Part shown: piece after piece, positions 11,386 to 21,084 of the stretch
Layout of the letters: every line of letters begins with the position of its first letter
Position numbering within the stretch: the first letter of the stretch is position 1
Assembly: GCA_936920195.1 (NCBI GenBank)
Contig: CAKZHE010000277.1
Coordinates: 1 to 32,817 of the forward strand
Direction: 5' to 3'
Length of the DNA: 32,817 bases
Source: an uncultured cyanobacterium
Lineage (GTDB): Bacteria > Cyanobacteriota > Cyanobacteriia > Cyanobacteriales > FACHB-T130
Notes under the pieces: model-generated
Database searches by the model: none
What the model saw: the letters and a program-made list of their open reading frames with translations, nothing else
What the model was told of the DNA's origin: nothing
Position numbers and translations under genes: made by a program

Positions 11386-14300
11386 TTATTGAGGCAAAAT
11401 CCCAATGCCTAAATTTTGCCAATCCTGATATTTTAAAATTAACACAATGCAATTATTACTGGCGATCGCTACTGTCGTCGGTAGTTCGCCATTAGTAGGA
11501 TTGCTGAGATACTGCCCAGGTTTGAGGCGCATGGTTGCCCATTGGGAATCCCCGGCGGCGGAAAGGGAAATTTTGTTCCGAACGAGAATTCGCCCTTTAT
11601 AAAGGATATAAAAATCATTTTTAGGACTGGTTTCATCAAAAATAGTTTCGCCAGCTAAAAATTCTTGCTTTTGTAAATTCTTTTCCACTGCCAACAATTC
11701 ATCTAAAGTCAGTTTCTCTAAGAAAGACACTTGTTTGAGAAATAGCAAGCGTTGAATTAATAAATCTTCCGCTGCTAAACTCGGAGATGGCGAGAGAATT
11801 TGGGCAGCTACTTGCTGTACTAGGGGATCTGGTTCATTTTGAAAATAGCCATCATCCAAAATGAATAAAGAGGATGATAGGTGATGTTTGGCGCTGGCAG
11901 AGAGGGCAATTAAAGCCCCAATTCGCATCCAGCGATCGCCGCCAGTTAAAATCTCTAATAATAAGTTGGCAAACCCCTCATTACTAGATAATTCATCCAT
12001 TTGGCGATTATCGCGATCGCTAGGTTCATTTGTCTTGACATCAAAGCCTAAAATTAAGACTTCAAAATCAACAGTATTACGATCTTGAAAGGGGTATAAA
12101 ACTAAGTGCTTAATTAAGGGTAAAATTAAATTCACAAATCGCCGCGATTCCACTGCCATTAACCTTTCCGCTGTCTTGGCTCGCAACCCGCCATCAAGGG
12201 AATTTAACAAGTTTTTAATCTCGCCCAAAGTATTCTCATAACCCAAGCCAGCAATCACTTGCATAAACGTCTGGAGATAGCGCTGTTGGTAGTCTTGCAA
12301 AGCCAGCGCCAAAAACAAACATTCCGGCGCATCCAAGGGAATTTGCTGCCGCCAGAGGATGCTATAGAGCAACATTTGCCGTTCTTCTTTCAGGTACTGA
12401 AATAGCATTTCTTCCCCAGATCGCGATCGCATTTGTCCGATTGCCATAATTACGGAATTTGCAAGCTTTTTGGGCGAAGATGTAAGTAAGGGTTGCAACA
12501 AAGTCAAACTGCGATCGCCTCCTGCTGCGATCGCTTTTACTGCCTGTTGGCGCACTAATTGGTGGGAATCTGTTAAACCAGTAATTGCCAATTCTAACAG
12601 TTCCGATTGCTGCAAAACAATTGATAATTCTAAAGCCGCAGTCCGAACTAAAGGATCGGGATGATGAAATTGCTCGACTACTAACGGCACTAAAAAGTCA
12701 TCTTCGGGAGTTGCCAAAGCTGTTAAAGCGCTCAAACCTTCTCGCTTCACAGCAATGGCACTGGGAGAATTTTCATTTCCTAAAAAAGATGGTTCTTGCA
12801 AAGTTGCTAAAATCAGCGGTACTAATTGGTGCTTACCCATTCGGTTAACTACCCGAATAATTTCTAACTGAAAAGAACTATCTATTCCCGATGTCCAAAT
12901 TTTTCTATAGGCAGTTTGAACTTCTGGACTAAGTTGTTCTAGGGGCAAGTTGACTGATAGCAACTTTTTTTCTGCTAGTTGTTTAGACTTTTCTCTAATT
13001 TTTACTTCTGGTAATGCTTGCCAAGTGGCAGCGCAGGCTAAAGCCCGAATTTTGGGATGAGGATCTTCTAAAAAGAAGCAAAGTTGCGAGTTGGAAAGCA
13101 ACTGATCGCTAGCAATTAAAGCTTCCAAAACCACCGCCCGCAAATTATCGCTATCCGCCGCTAATTGGGTGCGAAGAAAATGGTTAAATTCTGGGCGATT
13201 GCTGGTGCTTAAAAGTTTCACAGCGGCGTAACTAACTGCGGGTTCCGCCCGGAGTAATAAATCGGGAACTTCATCTAATAATTGACTAGAAAAGGCTAAC
13301 CTTGCCGCCAACTCCAACCCTAAAAGTTGCGATTGAGAATCTTCACTTCTCAGCAGTTGCCGAACTTCATCGGCATAGTGACGGGGTAACTTGGTTAACC
13401 CTTCGCTGACATCATCAAGATTAACTGTTCCCAAGCGCAATTGCCAGAGAAGCGATCGCAAATAGCTTTTACCAATGGCATAACCCAAGATAATAAAAAT
13501 TATGCTCAGAATAATTCCGATCGCGGCTAATTTGGTAGTGGAATCTCTGACTGGGGGAAAAAGTAGGAAAACTCCGGCGATCGCTTGACAGGTAGGATAG
13601 AGCAACCCGTCAATAATTACCCGCACTCTACCGACAAACTTATGGGGAATAGCATTATAATTTAAATTCTGAACTATCGCCGAAATGCCATTACTAAACG
13701 GGTCATAATTGATATTAGCAAAGATGGCAGCCGGAAATCTAAATGCTGCTAAACCGGGCATCTGGACTAAAAAAAGTAAACTAAAGCTAATTAAGGTAGT
13801 GATGGGGTAAACTAAGTTCATTCGGCTTACGCCCCAAATCTGAATCATGGGACGAGTAAAAAAATAAGTAATAATTAAGTCTAAAATACTAAATCCCGCA
13901 CTGAGCAATCCTAGAAAACCCGTCATTTCCTCTTCTTCAGTAAAGGTTTTCGAGTAGATATTAAAAAACTCTAATTCTCCAATTGCCCACAACAACACCG
14001 CCACCAAAGTATTAATTGCTAACAAGATAATAATTGGATAGCGAGATACCAATTCCGCCAAGGTTTTCACGCTGTCAATTAATCTAGCGTCTTCCTCGTG
14101 GGTAATCGGCAAAGATTCCTTTTCACTGCTTTCAAAAAAGAAAATTTGCCCAATGGCGATCGCATATAATATTGGAATGAACAACAATAAATTTTCCGTA
14201 GAAATATATTCCGACAACCAGCGGACTCCTGTCCCCCCCAATGTCCCCCCGGTAGTCATTGCCACGGCAATTAAAGCTGTCAATCTTTCCAATTCCAAAG

Positions 14301-14715
14301 GGGTAAAATAGTCAGATATCAGCGTCCATAAAATGATATAGAACAATAAATCTAAAATACTAGAACTAACATAGATGGCATAGTAAACTGTAGCGGAATT
14401 GAGACTCAAGAGCGACCAGAGAACAACCGCAATAACCCCAGAAAGTAGTAACAAATAGCGAAAAACTTTCAGCCGAGAGTAACTATCAATAATTTGCGAT
14501 AGCGCCCCAGAGATGGGAATTGATAATAACCCCAAACAAATATAAAATATGGGGATGGACTGGGAACCTACCTTAGTCAGAAATAAAGAGGCGGCGATCG
14601 CATAGGCAAAAATATTGCTCGCTGTCAGCGTACCCGCTAAAAATAGCAGGTGCAGTAAGCGTTGTTTTTTCTTGAACTGCCAGCTAAAAGAGGGGGCGAA
14701 TAACCTTTGCAACAT
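11386..14715 (-). CDS. NTT/MFS-like 12-TM protein with HEAT repeats and C-terminal cNMP-binding-like domain
   Basis: The 1109-residue protein has three parts. Residues 20-417 form about 12 hydrophobic segments, with SASNIFAYAIA-like and YFTPLELERLTALIAVAMTT blocks reminiscent of ATP/ADP (NTT) translocase-like MFS proteins. Residues about 430-960 are alpha-alpha repeats of HEAT type, for example HHPDPLVRTAALEL and TDSHQLVRQQAVKAIAAGG. Residues about 985-1109 form a cyclic-nucleotide-binding-like beta-roll (LEKLTLDELLAVEKNLQKQ, AGETIFDE, FYILYKGRILV). The cNMP phosphate cassette with its conserved Glu and Arg is not evident, so ligand binding is doubtful. It should sit in the membrane with a large cytosolic scaffold. 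Transport of nucleotides is only a guess; a sensor or scaffold role is equally possible. Confidence 0.7.
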   Translation of the reverse strand: MLQRLFAPSFSWQFKKKQRLLHLLFLAGTLTASNIFAYAIAASLFLTKVGSQSIPIFYICLGLLSIPISGALSQIIDSYSRLKVFRYLLLLSGVIAVVLWSLLSLNSATVYYAIYVSSSILDLLFYIILWTLISDYFTPLELERLTALIAVAMTTGGTLGGTGVRWLSEYISTENLLLFIPILYAIAIGQIFFFESSEKESLPITHEEDARLIDSVKTLAELVSRYPIIILLAINTLVAVLLWAIGELEFFNIYSKTFTEEEEMTGFLGLLSAGFSILDLIITYFFTRPMIQIWGVSRMNLVYPITTLISFSLLFLVQMPGLAAFRFPAAIFANINYDPFSNGISAIVQNLNYNAIPHKFVGRVRVIIDGLLYPTCQAIAGVFLLFPPVRDSTTKLAAIGIILSIIFIILGYAIGKSYLRSLLWQLRLGTVNLDDVSEGLTKLPRHYADEVRQLLRSEDSQSQLLGLELAARLAFSSQLLDEVPDLLLRAEPAVSYAAVKLLSTSNRPEFNHFLRTQLAADSDNLRAVVLEALIASDQLLSNSQLCFFLEDPHPKIRALACAATWQALPEVKIREKSKQLAEKKLLSVNLPLEQLSPEVQTAYRKIWTSGIDSSFQLEIIRVVNRMGKHQLVPLILATLQEPSFLGNENSPSAIAVKREGLSALTALATPEDDFLVPLVVEQFHHPDPLVRTAALELSIVLQQSELLELAITGLTDSHQLVRQQAVKAIAAGGDRSLTLLQPLLTSSPKKLANSVIMAIGQMRSRSGEEMLFQYLKEERQMLLYSILWRQQIPLDAPECLFLALALQDYQQRYLQTFMQVIAGLGYENTLGEIKNLLNSLDGGLRAKTAERLMAVESRRFVNLILPLIKHLVLYPFQDRNTVDFEVLILGFDVKTNEPSDRDNRQMDELSSNEGFANLLLEILTGGDRWMRIGALIALSASAKHHLSSSLFILDDGYFQNEPDPLVQQVAAQILSPSPSLAAEDLLIQRLLFLKQVSFLEKLTLDELLAVEKNLQKQEFLAGETIFDETSPKNDFYILYKGRILVRNKISLSAAGDSQWATMRLKPGQYLSNPTNGELPTTVAIASNNCIVLILKYQDWQNLGIGILPQ

Positions 14716-15045: not shown

Positions 15046-16251
15046 CTAAATCTTCATATCTAGCCGGAGAGCCTGCTCTAAAGCCGCTTTGTGTCTAGCA
15101 CGACGGGCATAAGGTTCCAATTCTGTCATACTTAAGCCACTTAATACACTTAAATCCTCCAATTTCATTCCTTTAAACAGCATTTCCACGCACCAAGTAT
15201 CCCGCGCCTGTTCTATCATCGGCGGTTGTCCTTCCGGGGAAAGCATCCCCTGAGTCCACGTTTCCCAAAGCGCGATCGCCTCTAATTCCGTCATTGGCTC
15301 CCCAGCCTGATTCAGAAACAAAGCGGCAAGGCTATCTTTGCGACTTTTTAACCATTGGGTTAAGGGATTGCGGGTATAAGAACCATAACGCTTGCCCATA
15401 ATCCATTGATTCACAGGCACTTGTCGCACTGGGCGATCGTTCACTTGCAACAAATGTCCTTGGGGTTCAATAATTTGGCGTACCCGCTCCAAATTAACAA
15501 TTTCCCCCACTGTTAACCCCGCCCCAAACAACACATACGCCAGGGCATAGTCTCGCGCCCCTAGTTTTTGCGCTCGATGGAGAATGGTATGGGTTAAGGA
15601 AGCTGGCAAATCGGCAACTTTGGGCAAGTCAGTTTTTTCCTCTTTCCGCAAGGGAGATACTGCCCCCCGCAAAAATAAATCAACTAAATTATCTAAAAAA
15701 TCGTTACGGTCATCCCAAAGTTCGTGAAACTCGCTGGTAGACTCAATGGCAACATAGCCCAAGAGCATCCCATTCAGCAAACTGGCTAATTTTTCCGGAG
15801 CCAACCGCGCCTGTAAATGCCCCCGCGCGATCGCCGCCGCCAAATATTCCGCCACATAACGATTCACCCTAGTTAGCCCCCTCCCTAGGGCTTGGCGGTT
15901 TTCTACCGGATACTGCCCCGACTCCCCCACCACAGAGCGGACAAATTCTGAGACTTGTTCCAGCGCCTGCAACCGATTTTTGGCATAATCTTTTAAAGTG
16001 TCTTCTAAGCTACCAATTTGCTGAACTTGCTCCACCAGAGCCGTCCGCAATTGAGTCAACACCGTGGCATCTTCAATCGCTGCCAAAAGCAAGCCGTGCT
16101 TGCTTCCAAAATGCCGAAATAACGTCACCTCATTCACTTGGGCGACTTCGGCAATTTGGCGAGTAGTGGTTTCAGTCACTCCCTGCGCCGCAAATAACTC
16201 TAGTGCCGCCTCAATCAACCGCGCTCTAGTAGCATCTCTCTGAGAAGTCAT
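15046..16251 (-). CDS. TetR-family regulator fused to a degenerate tyrosine-recombinase-like domain
   Basis: The 401-residue protein is twice the usual TetR length. Residues 8-56 form a standard TetR helix-turn-helix (TRQIAEVAQVNEVTLFRHFG), and 57-205 the helical ligand domain. Residues about 215-401 look like the catalytic domain of a tyrosine recombinase: FGAGLTVGEIVNLE aligns with the G-R-x-S-E-L block, IEQARDTW with the HxLRHTF block, and LEPYARRA with the nucleophile region. The spacing fits XerD: position 247 to Arg350 is 103 residues (99 in XerD) and Arg350 to Tyr381 is 31 (32 in XerD). Arg-I is Thr247, the first His is Glu347 and the second is Leu373, so catalysis is unlikely. It is divergent from desC, so control of desaturation, by analogy to DesT, is plausible. 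Confidence 0.75.
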   Translation of the reverse strand: MTSQRDATRARLIEAALELFAAQGVTETTTRQIAEVAQVNEVTLFRHFGSKHGLLLAAIEDATVLTQLRTALVEQVQQIGSLEDTLKDYAKNRLQALEQVSEFVRSVVGESGQYPVENRQALGRGLTRVNRYVAEYLAAAIARGHLQARLAPEKLASLLNGMLLGYVAIESTSEFHELWDDRNDFLDNLVDLFLRGAVSPLRKEEKTDLPKVADLPASLTHTILHRAQKLGARDYALAYVLFGAGLTVGEIVNLERVRQIIEPQGHLLQVNDRPVRQVPVNQWIMGKRYGSYTRNPLTQWLKSRKDSLAALFLNQAGEPMTELEAIALWETWTQGMLSPEGQPPMIEQARDTWCVEMLFKGMKLEDLSVLSGLSMTELEPYARRARHKAALEQALRLDMKI

Positions 16252-16261
16252 AAATTTTTAA

Positions 16262-16278
16262 TGTAAGTGACACTTGCA
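16262..16278. promoter_or_regulatory. Candidate TetR operator (17-nt palindrome)
   Basis: TGTAAGTGACACTTGCA is palindromic apart from the centre and one base pair (positions 3/15). It sits 10 bp upstream of the TetR-fusion start codon, in the divergent gap before desC. TetR proteins often bind such sites in their own promoters. Confidence 0.5.
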
Positions 16279-16310
16279 TAAAAACCCAATCGTTGTTAAG
16301 CTATAAAAGT

Positions 16311-16325
16311 GCAAGTAAAGCTTGC
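16311..16325. promoter_or_regulatory. Second half-related palindrome in the tetR-desC gap
   Basis: GCAAG, a 5-base spacer TAAAG, and CTTGC. The arms share the CTTGCA/TGCAAG element of the 16262 palindrome (AGTGCAAG here against ACACTTGCA there). It could be a second binding site placed toward desC. Confidence 0.35.
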
Positions 16326-16426
16326 GTTTTCTATAGATAATTTAGCTGACTGCTTTAGGGAGTAAATAGCCCAGCCAAATTTTTTAACACCACTTTGCTT
16401 GCAACCATCCATATCAGGAAAGATTC

Positions 16427-17275
16427 ATGACAATCCAATCCCCCGCCACTGATGGCGAATCAACTCTCCGCCTCAGTTGGACAAACGTGGCATTTTTTGG
16501 GGCAATACACGCCCTAGCATTGCTGGCTCCTTGGTTTTTTTCTTGGTCTGCTCTCGGTGCAATGATCTTCATGCACTGGCTCTTTGGCAGCATTGGCATT
16601 TGTTTAGGCTATCATCGCTTGCTCACCCATCGCAGTTTGCAAGTCCCTAAGTGGTTAGAATATATTTTGGCAACCTTGGGTGCGTTGGCAATGCAAGGTG
16701 GACCCTCATTTTGGGTATCGGGACACCGCCTGCACCACCTTTATACCGAAGATACCGAAAAAGACCCCTATTCAGCGAAACGGGGATTTTGGTGGAGTCA
16801 TATGCTGTGGATTTTTTACCCCAAGGCCGAATTTTTTAATCGCGAATCCTACAAGAAATATGCGCCAGATTTAGAACGGGAACCCTATTATCGTTGGCTA
16901 GACGACAACTTTTTACTCTTGCAAATTCCCCTAGGTATCCTGTTGTATGCTTTAGGCGGTTGGTCTTGGGTGATTTATGGGGTGTTTGTGCGAGCCGTCT
17001 TCTTGTGGCACAGCACTTGGTTAATTAATTCGGCGACTCACATGAGCGGTTATCAGACTTTCTCGGTGGAAGATAATTCTCGCAATCTTTGGTGGGCAGC
17101 AATTCTTACCTATGGCGAAGGTTGGCACAACAATCATCATGCTTATCCCAATGTTGCCAAAGCTGGATTGAACTGGTGGGAGATTGATATGACTTGGTGG
17201 GCAATCAAGTTTCTGGAAATTGTTGGTTTAGCCAAGAAAGTGATTTTGCCTCCAGCAAAAGCTGAAGCTTCATAG
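16427..17275 (+). CDS. desC: Acyl-lipid/acyl-CoA delta-9 desaturase (DesC type)
   Basis: This membrane di-iron desaturase introduces the first double bond into C16/C18 acyl chains. The three histidine boxes are complete: HRLLTH (63-68), HRLHH (100-104) and HNNHH (234-238). The hydrophobic segments at about 20-60 and 160-190 fit the four-helix topology, and the 282-residue length is typical. The ATG is preceded by AGGAA at 16416-16420. The 175-bp divergent promoter shared with the TetR-fusion gene contains two palindromes, so local control of unsaturation is likely. The exact acyl position cannot be read from sequence; DesC-type delta-9 is the usual cyanobacterial assignment. Confidence 0.88.
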   Translation: MTIQSPATDGESTLRLSWTNVAFFGAIHALALLAPWFFSWSALGAMIFMHWLFGSIGICLGYHRLLTHRSLQVPKWLEYILATLGALAMQGGPSFWVSGHRLHHLYTEDTEKDPYSAKRGFWWSHMLWIFYPKAEFFNRESYKKYAPDLEREPYYRWLDDNFLLLQIPLGILLYALGGWSWVIYGVFVRAVFLWHSTWLINSATHMSGYQTFSVEDNSRNLWWAAILTYGEGWHNNHHAYPNVAKAGLNWWEIDMTWWAIKFLEIVGLAKKVILPPAKAEAS

Positions 17276-19371: not shown

Positions 19372-21084
19372 TTAATCCTTGCTGGGAAGGCTCGCTTTGG
19401 CAACTCTGTAGCCTTTGCCTGTTTTATCCAAATCAAAAATATCGCGAGACTCCAAAAACTTAGTTAAACTTGTTCCCGCTTGCAGGCGCTGAATAGTCAA
19501 AATAATCGACTCGCCATAAAGCTTTTGGAATTCAGTGCCTAAATTGGATAGGGGGAGGTAAGGATTGACAGCAGTGGTTAATTGGTCGATAATGGAAATG
19601 ACAATCTGTTCTAATTCCTCTGGAGAAGTAATTTCGGCTCCTTTGGGTGAAGAAGGAAGTGCGATCGCTACTCGATCTTCATTAGCAATATTTACCAATT
19701 TAAAAGCACTGCGAGACTGCAAAAATTTCGATAAATTTGCCCCAGCTTGCAATTGTTTAATTACCTGATTAATTGATTGTCCGTATTCTTTGTGAAATTT
19801 CGCCCCTAAGTCTCGCAGCAGAATAGAACTGCGTGAGGGTGTGGCAAGAGAATTGATAATTTTCACTAACAACCGTTCTAATTCTTCAGGAGAATTGATC
19901 GGCAAGATCTCTTGCTCTGGATCGGTTGCATCTGTTTTCTCAACTAAGGAATTAACTGCAACTTCAACCGATGTTTCTGATTCTCCTGACTGAATTTCCA
20001 GACTAGATGATTTAAACAAAGTAATATATATTTCCGACTCATCTGGTCGTTGATGAATAGCAAAAATATTGCCGTACTCTAACAGCAAATCTTTGATTTT
20101 AGTCCCTGGTTTGTGGCGATTCAGGACTTGACTAATAGTTAAAGCATATTTCTTGTGAAAAATTTGCGAGGCACTGGAAAGTTTAATCCATTGAGTGCCA
20201 TTGCTGGCTTGGACAGTTTGCACAACTTCTTGAAATTGCAGGATAAATTCTGATAGTGAGGGGATAACTACTAAAGGTTTAGGCGAGTAGAGTTGAGTTT
20301 GTCCCGTCTTGCTATTAAATATGGCCAGATTATCGGCCTGTTTGCGGACAAGATATACTGTTAAGCCATGAGTTTGCAAAGTAGTCGCCAGATGAGTCAT
20401 TACTCGGTCAGAAGAACAAACTAAAACTTCCCTAGCATTGGGATAATGGATAAAAATAGACGAACCAACCGTAGCCATTTTGACATCAGCACTGTCTTTC
20501 CCCGCCGGAACATGAATTAATTCATAGCTGCGATTGTGCAAGTCTACATCTTGCTTGCCCATATTCCGCCAATTGGCAAAGGCAATTTTAATTTGAATGG
20601 GATATTGACAGATGTTGGCTAATAGTTTTTCAGTCTTGGTAGTAATTTGCAAATTTTCGGCATCTAACAATAAAATCGCGATGCCTGATTCTGCCACCAC
20701 CGATGTTAAAGATAATTCTGGCTCGGCGGCTGAAATTACCGAGGGGCGATGAACCACTGCGGAATTAGCAGTTTTTTGAAGCTGCTGCAACAATCTTTGA
20801 AAAAAACCACTTTCAAAGAAAGCTGGCGATAGTAAGGGTTGGAGAAACTTCTGGATTCTAGAGCTTAATGCCCTGAAATTACTTACCTGACTAAGTTCCG
20901 CGTGTAATTTCTGCCGAAAAATCGCCTGATTGTGGGGATGACTCCAGGGAGTGCGGCGGTATTTCTCGACAAGCAATTCCGGTTGCTGCTGTTGAACTGC
21001 CAGCAGGGTTTGATAAGCGTAAAAGCTAATAGCATCAAGGCTTACAGCATGATTGGCTGAATTGAGACTAAGACGATCGATCAT
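19372..21084 (-). CDS. NYN-domain (PIN-like) nuclease with three OST-HTH/LOTUS domains
   Basis: The 570-residue protein has an N-terminal helical region (1-130), then an NYN/PIN-like RNase domain (about 133-255). Acidic metal-site candidates are Asp141 (ILLLDAENL), Asp197/Asp200 (GKDSADVKM) and Asp226 (VCSSDRVM). Three repeats of the OST-HTH/LOTUS type follow at about 298-358, 398-475 and 487-563. Each has a conserved pattern of the kind FHKEYGQSINQVIKQLQAG, SKFLQSR, FKLV. LOTUS domains bind RNA, including G-quadruplexes, in known cases, so this is likely an RNA-processing or RNA-silencing nuclease. It is divergent from ubiD over 105 bp. Its cellular target is unknown. Confidence 0.8.
   Translation of the reverse strand: MIDRLSLNSANHAVSLDAISFYAYQTLLAVQQQQPELLVEKYRRTPWSHPHNQAIFRQKLHAELSQVSNFRALSSRIQKFLQPLLSPAFFESGFFQRLLQQLQKTANSAVVHRPSVISAAEPELSLTSVVAESGIAILLLDAENLQITTKTEKLLANICQYPIQIKIAFANWRNMGKQDVDLHNRSYELIHVPAGKDSADVKMATVGSSIFIHYPNAREVLVCSSDRVMTHLATTLQTHGLTVYLVRKQADNLAIFNSKTGQTQLYSPKPLVVIPSLSEFILQFQEVVQTVQASNGTQWIKLSSASQIFHKKYALTISQVLNRHKPGTKIKDLLLEYGNIFAIHQRPDESEIYITLFKSSSLEIQSGESETSVEVAVNSLVEKTDATDPEQEILPINSPEELERLLVKIINSLATPSRSSILLRDLGAKFHKEYGQSINQVIKQLQAGANLSKFLQSRSAFKLVNIANEDRVAIALPSSPKGAEITSPEELEQIVISIIDQLTTAVNPYLPLSNLGTEFQKLYGESIILTIQRLQAGTSLTKFLESRDIFDLDKTGKGYRVAKASLPSKD

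Follow-up and report, generated by a model that had tools for sequence, protein, structure and literature searches.

A TetR regulator carrying a catalytically eroded tyrosine-recombinase fold beside a second-type Delta9 desaturase gene in cyanobacteria

Cold and light tolerance of cyanobacteria rests on membrane lipid desaturation. In a 32,817-nucleotide stretch of DNA from an uncultured cyanobacterium (contig CAKZHE010000277.1, here called the window), a gene for a Delta9 acyl-lipid desaturase diverges from a gene for a TetR-type regulator whose C-terminal half resembles a tyrosine recombinase. An earlier note on this DNA, made from the sequence alone, had described a normal TetR domain followed by a XerD-like catalytic domain with several catalytic residues lost, and had proposed that the fusion would be a new regulator class. 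The open reading frame that it placed at 15046-16251 was confirmed and lies on the minus strand; the plus strand of the same interval is interrupted by stops throughout. The features of the locus are collected in Table 1.

Table 1. Features of the regulator-desaturase locus in window coordinates. Counts at single residues refer to 151 distinct orthologues having the recombinase domain.
Feature	Position	Strand	Remarks
TetR–recombinase-fold fusion regulator	15046..16251	-	ORF, 401 aa
TetR part, residues 1-200	15652..16251	-	HTH at residues 12-58, then ligand/dimer helices
Tyrosine-recombinase catalytic-fold domain, residues 205-401, catalytically eroded	15049..15639	-	PF00589, XerA profile match, AF2 model
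Arg-I position, Thr247	15511..15513	-	Ser in most orthologues; Arg in 5/151, lost in 146/151
Glu/Asp of recombinase motif, Glu250, retained	15502..15504	-	E in 145, D in 5 of 151
Beta2-beta3 catalytic Lys position, Asp272	15436..15438	-	Lys in 6/151
Arg276, invariant	15424..15426	-	151/151
Insert GKRYGSYTRNP (GKRYGSYTRNPL), residues 286-296	15364..15396	-	conserved; gap in aligned intact recombinases
First His position, Glu347	15211..15213	-	Glu 93, Ala 27 of 151; His not among the residues listed
Arg-II position, Arg350	15202..15204	-	Gln in 113/151, Arg in 27/151
Second His/Trp position, Leu373	15133..15135	-	Trp in 75/151
Nucleophile position, Tyr381	15109..15111	-	Tyr kept in 133/151
Predicted operator 1, TGTAAGTGACACTTGCA	16262..16278		palindrome present in 102 loci
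-35-like TTGCAT of putative desaturase promoter, within operator 1	16274..16279	+	17-nt spacer to TANNNT in 99/102
Putative extended -10, TG-T-TAAGCT	16294..16302	+	TG at expected offset in 93/102 loci
Predicted operator 2, TGCAAGTAAAGCTTGCG	16310..16326		just past putative transcription start
Delta9 acyl-lipid desaturase (second-type desC), divergent putative target	16427..17275	+	FA_desaturase E 4.5e-24

The N-terminal domain proved to be a normal TetR domain, as had been claimed, with TetR_N (PF00440) matching residues 12-58 at E 1.8e-14 and TetR_C_7 marking the helical ligand/dimer core after the HTH, both above cut-off; the full-length model matched TetR chains over residues 5-200 at Z of about 16-17. 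When residues 205-401 were searched alone against Pfam, PF00589 Phage_integrase was matched at E 4.3e-6 and 27.1 bits, exactly the curated cut-off, and taken alone this match is marginal. The doubt was removed by the orthologue family, since 65 of 68 representative orthologue tails matched Phage_integrase (best E 2.3e-12) and a PDB search with a profile of these tails returned the archaeal XerA of Pyrococcus (4a8e) at E 3.9e-7. An AlphaFold2 model of the domain (mean pLDDT 94.5, pTM 0.89) gave Z 20.4 against XerA over 175 residues (rmsd 3.7), 17.6 against XerH, 16.1 against an integron integrase and about 15 against Cre; the recombinase-fold repressors of phages (SroF, YopR and MrpR) matched it at Z 11-13. 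These results bear out the XerD-like catalytic domain that had been placed at about residues 215-401, and the structure predicted for residues 205-401 is clearly related to the recombinase fold, which itself spans about residues 212-398.

The architecture differs from that of the Xer recombinases in other respects. The window protein has the catalytic-domain fold and detectable sequence homology in common with XerA, XerC, XerD and XerH; unlike them, it has an eroded active site and a TetR part in place of the core-binding domain. No core-binding (SAM-like) domain precedes the recombinase fold, residues 1-200 being TetR and followed by a short, low-confidence linker. Comparison of orthologues and the full-length model (linker pLDDT about 41) both indicate that the linker is flexible and variable, and how the two domains lie relative to each other was not confidently predicted in that model (pTM 0.50).

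We gathered 103 orthologues from cyanobacteria, all full length except one cut by a contig start. In a sample of the phylum, 42 of 386 genomes matched the whole family strongly (E<=1e-60); the match spanned both parts in 41 and covered the TetR part only in one. A sample of the class, searched with the TetR part at E<=1e-24, gave matches in 197 of 390 genomes, mostly within open frames of about 390-480 aa; the two counts come from different samples and thresholds. The search that the earlier note had suggested, for TetR proteins of about 400 residues beside desC, thus found the fusion family widely, and the link to a desaturase gene was upheld: wherever the upstream DNA was long enough to judge (102 of 102 loci), the gene diverging from the regulator, at a distance of about 104-523 bp, encodes a Delta9 desaturase, and the same neighbour was seen in deep lineages. 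Both the fusion of TetR with an eroded recombinase domain and its association with the desaturase gene are strongly supported. In 60 relatives the domain profile found only the fusion and no stand-alone version, and in the source genome it matched nothing besides the fusion even at E 10. A phage origin of the domain was considered and rejected, as there was no close phage match and the one matching viral contig encodes an ordinary intact recombinase; a plasmid origin was rejected as well, the one plasmid match carrying the whole desaturase-regulator pair. PADLOC gave no match to a defence system. Two contigs of Mastigocoleus testarum BC008 (L074 and L075) have near-identical regulator-desaturase loci, either a recent duplication or an assembly repeat.

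The desaturase itself is a second copy. A universal desC copy is present in nearly all relatives at about 45-55% identity to the window desaturase, and the second-type paralogue, at 65-79% identity, comes in addition in relatives bearing the regulator. DesC1 and DesC2 types of cyanobacterial desaturase have been described (PMC4390868). Like the DesC2-type enzymes, the window desaturase is a Delta9 paralogue distinct from the universal copy, and it is probably the enzyme published as DesC2. No described regulator of the second-type Delta9 desaturase was found in the literature searched, and the present analysis names a candidate regulator, two predicted operators and a putative promoter for it. 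Second-type copies (69-73% identity to that of the window) also occur where no regulator of the family was found (G004:C33, G058:C18, G039:C9, G009:C121, G019:C200, G059:C6, G056:C1, G033:C1 and G026:C73).

The catalytic positions were fixed by alignment to XerA (GAGLR at Arg-I) and to an intact viral recombinase. Because the alignments fix these positions, the residue calls of the earlier note (Thr247, Glu347, Arg350, Leu373 and Tyr381) can be accepted, and the catalytic Lys is seen to be lost as well (Asp272). The retention of Arg350 holds for the window protein but not as a trait of the family, in which Gln prevails at this position. A complete R-K-H-R-(H/W)-Y set was found in 0/151 orthologues, and the best of them had four of the six catalytic positions. 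Across the alignment, the erosion of the active site is family-wide and old, and no defect of a single gene; as no orthologue exceeds four of six positions, catalysis was probably lost early in the family while the domain stayed under selection. Conservation is found elsewhere in the domain, both in basic residues (R256, R276, R288, R304, K305, R384 and K388) and in the family-specific insert, which ranks among its most conserved stretches.

Substitution rates and retention both bear on whether the domain still matters. In 35 independent close pairs, the median dN/dS was 0.14 for the recombinase part and 0.08 for the TetR part, and few orthologues anywhere in the phylum, deep lineages included, are without the domain; on these comparisons it is still under purifying selection. 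It is very improbable, then, that the tail is a decaying remnant of no function on an otherwise ordinary TetR regulator. The tail has been lost from one lineage and has the higher dN/dS of the two parts, but a median as low as 0.14, invariant residues and near-universal retention argue against decay.

K-mer and palindrome counts in the intergenic regions, made unaided, yielded TGCAAGTnnnACTTGCA. The predicted operator is a 17-bp palindrome, TGyAAGynnnRCTTGCA, present in two copies in the gap between regulator and desaturase: of 102 intergenic regions, 101 hold exactly two sites and the remaining one holds three, compared with 0/2,040 shuffled regions having two sites when dinucleotides were preserved. 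The spacing between the operators is 46, 47 or 48 bp in 34 of the 42 least redundant regions. A conserved TTGTTAnnnT block sits between them and reads as an extended -10 element; this geometry, together with the 17-nt spacer, would place operator 1 over the -35 and the start of operator 2 near +1. A strict scan for sigma-70 promoters came back empty, the -10 hexamer being a poor one. Operator 1 lies about ten bases before the start codon of the regulator, which implies self-control. Besides the palindrome and the promoter, no further conserved DNA element was found in the intergenic regions, and nothing there points to the recombinase part recognizing a DNA sequence of its own.

Among 60 relatives, the exact operator pattern was present in 22 of 23 genomes bearing the regulator versus 2 of 37 without it, and the two sites in the latter (G009 and G059) fall inside unrelated coding genes. 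The sole other exact operator-like site of the source genome (L189) also lies inside an unrelated coding gene and was rejected as a sign of a wider regulon. Since the off-locus sites are inside unrelated coding genes, the regulon looks confined to the desaturase locus.

Two palindromic sites flanking a promoter, and a Tyr at the nucleophile position (Tyr381) kept in 133/151 orthologues, might suggest that the protein is still active in recombination and uses the palindromes to invert or rearrange the promoter that they enclose. We give this reading practically no weight: the catalytic set is incomplete in every orthologue, the core-binding domain is absent, the palindromes have the size of TetR operators, and the promoter faces the desaturase in 102/102 loci, so that no flipped state was seen.

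A natural counterpart of the fusion was found in one complete genome (G067), where the TetR part alone (240 aa) adjoins the same desaturase, with both predicted operators 47 bp apart. A genome of the same genus (G565) has a similar TetR-only look and probably lacks the domain too, but its frame runs into a contig end, as does that of G602, and neither was accepted as a certain TetR-only case; three others (G618, G562 and G614) were rejected because the domain is still present beside the TetR part. In the tree, the TetR-only pair (G067 and G565) is nested within fusion lineages, with support at the enclosing nodes of 0.87 to 0.94 (best values, three nodes) and 0.72 at another, and the TetR-only form is therefore best read as loss of the recombinase domain. 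Because G067 keeps both operators without the domain, the operator pair does not require it, and the 46-48 bp spacing can be explained by promoter geometry alone. Such a lineage makes the role of the domain directly testable.

The explanation that we favor, with a probability of about 0.7, is that the protein is a dedicated, self-limiting local repressor of the second-type Delta9 desaturase, with the eroded recombinase fold as an accessory module. What follows on repression, on its ligand and on what the recombinase domain does is our inference. The TetR part would bind each 17-bp palindrome as a dimer. Occupation of operator 1 would cover the -35 of the desaturase promoter, with the start codon of the regulator just beyond, and protein bound at operator 2, which starts at about +1, would shut this promoter; as the intergenic region is shared, the regulator would repress itself too. 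A ligand of the TetR core would then release the repressor, most likely an acyl group reporting the state of the membrane or of the fatty acids, because DesT and MadR control desaturases in response to acyl-CoA. Both of these are TetR proteins of the usual single kind, about 200 aa long, and are not known to carry a recombinase domain.

The accessory module would most likely contact the DNA backbone and/or bridge the two bound dimers. Such action as a DNA clamp or dimer bridge is a tentative proposal drawn from analogy, to which we give somewhat less than even odds. MrpR is a repressor with a recombinase fold in which most catalytic residues are lost and the Tyr is kept and important for DNA binding (PMC10516654), and for this reason a clamp or bridge would fit Tyr381, which persists in the window protein, and its conserved basic residues. 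A bolder and unlikely version is that the dead domains of the two TetR dimers flanking the promoter pair as in a recombinase synapse and lock the host promoter shut; if true, a recombination fold would have been recruited as a bridge over a host metabolic promoter.

The domain might instead make no DNA contact and adjust the activity of the TetR part by sensing or binding a partner (a lipid, acyl-ACP, the membrane or another protein). This alternative would account for the fact that the strongest conservation of the domain takes in the insert GKRYGSYTRNPL and not the former active site, for the lack of a second DNA motif, for the operators kept by the TetR-only lineage and for the flexible, variable linker that divides the two domains. 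We hold it somewhat less likely than a clamp or bridge: the number of conserved basic residues and the persistence of the Tyr, a residue important for DNA binding in MrpR (PMC10516654), point the other way, and no ligand-binding analogue of the recombinase fold was found.

Compared with known systems, the favored local repressor combines two features met separately. DesT of Pseudomonas aeruginosa and MadR of Mycobacterium are TetR-family desaturase repressors that sense acyl-CoA (PMC8872791), and the window protein shares with them the TetR family and the association with a desaturase gene. With MrpR/YopR (SPbeta) and SroF (phi3T) it shares a recombinase fold in transcription control, with catalytic residues lost in the case of MrpR; these are, however, phage proteins without a host metabolic target, and MrpR lacks a TetR part and carries a core-binding domain of its own. 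Recruitment of the recombinase fold in phage repressors of the MrpR type happened separately. As both recombinase-fold repressors and TetR desaturase repressors are known, the proposal of a new regulator class was too strong; what appears new is the combination of a putative TetR desaturase regulator with a recombinase catalytic fold. No paper on such a fusion was found in the mostly open-access literature searched. Phage repressors are not the only proteins to have taken up a recombinase domain: here one long ago became part of a probable regulator of host metabolism that is conserved through much of the cyanobacterial phylum, and membrane-lipid control seems to have gained an old recombinase fold in this way.

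The pair is also carried by the 29-kb plasmid pP742403 of Gloeothece citriformis PCC 7424 (L244), together with both predicted operators, and its regulator is annotated merely as TetR/AcrR family. On this mobilizable plasmid the pair lies near a gene for an orange carotenoid protein N-domain and a light-harvesting-like gene of the ssl1498 type, and the gene set suggests a light-stress cassette moving as a unit.

Elsewhere in the window, the downstream neighbor of the regulator (11386-14715, minus strand) encodes a 1109-aa protein with an MFS transporter domain and HEAT repeats, whose C-terminal stretch looks like a candidate cyclic-nucleotide-binding domain; this gene is not conserved downstream of the regulator in relatives. 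A further gene on the minus strand (19372-21084) encodes an NYN nuclease domain protein with OST-HTH/LOTUS repeats.
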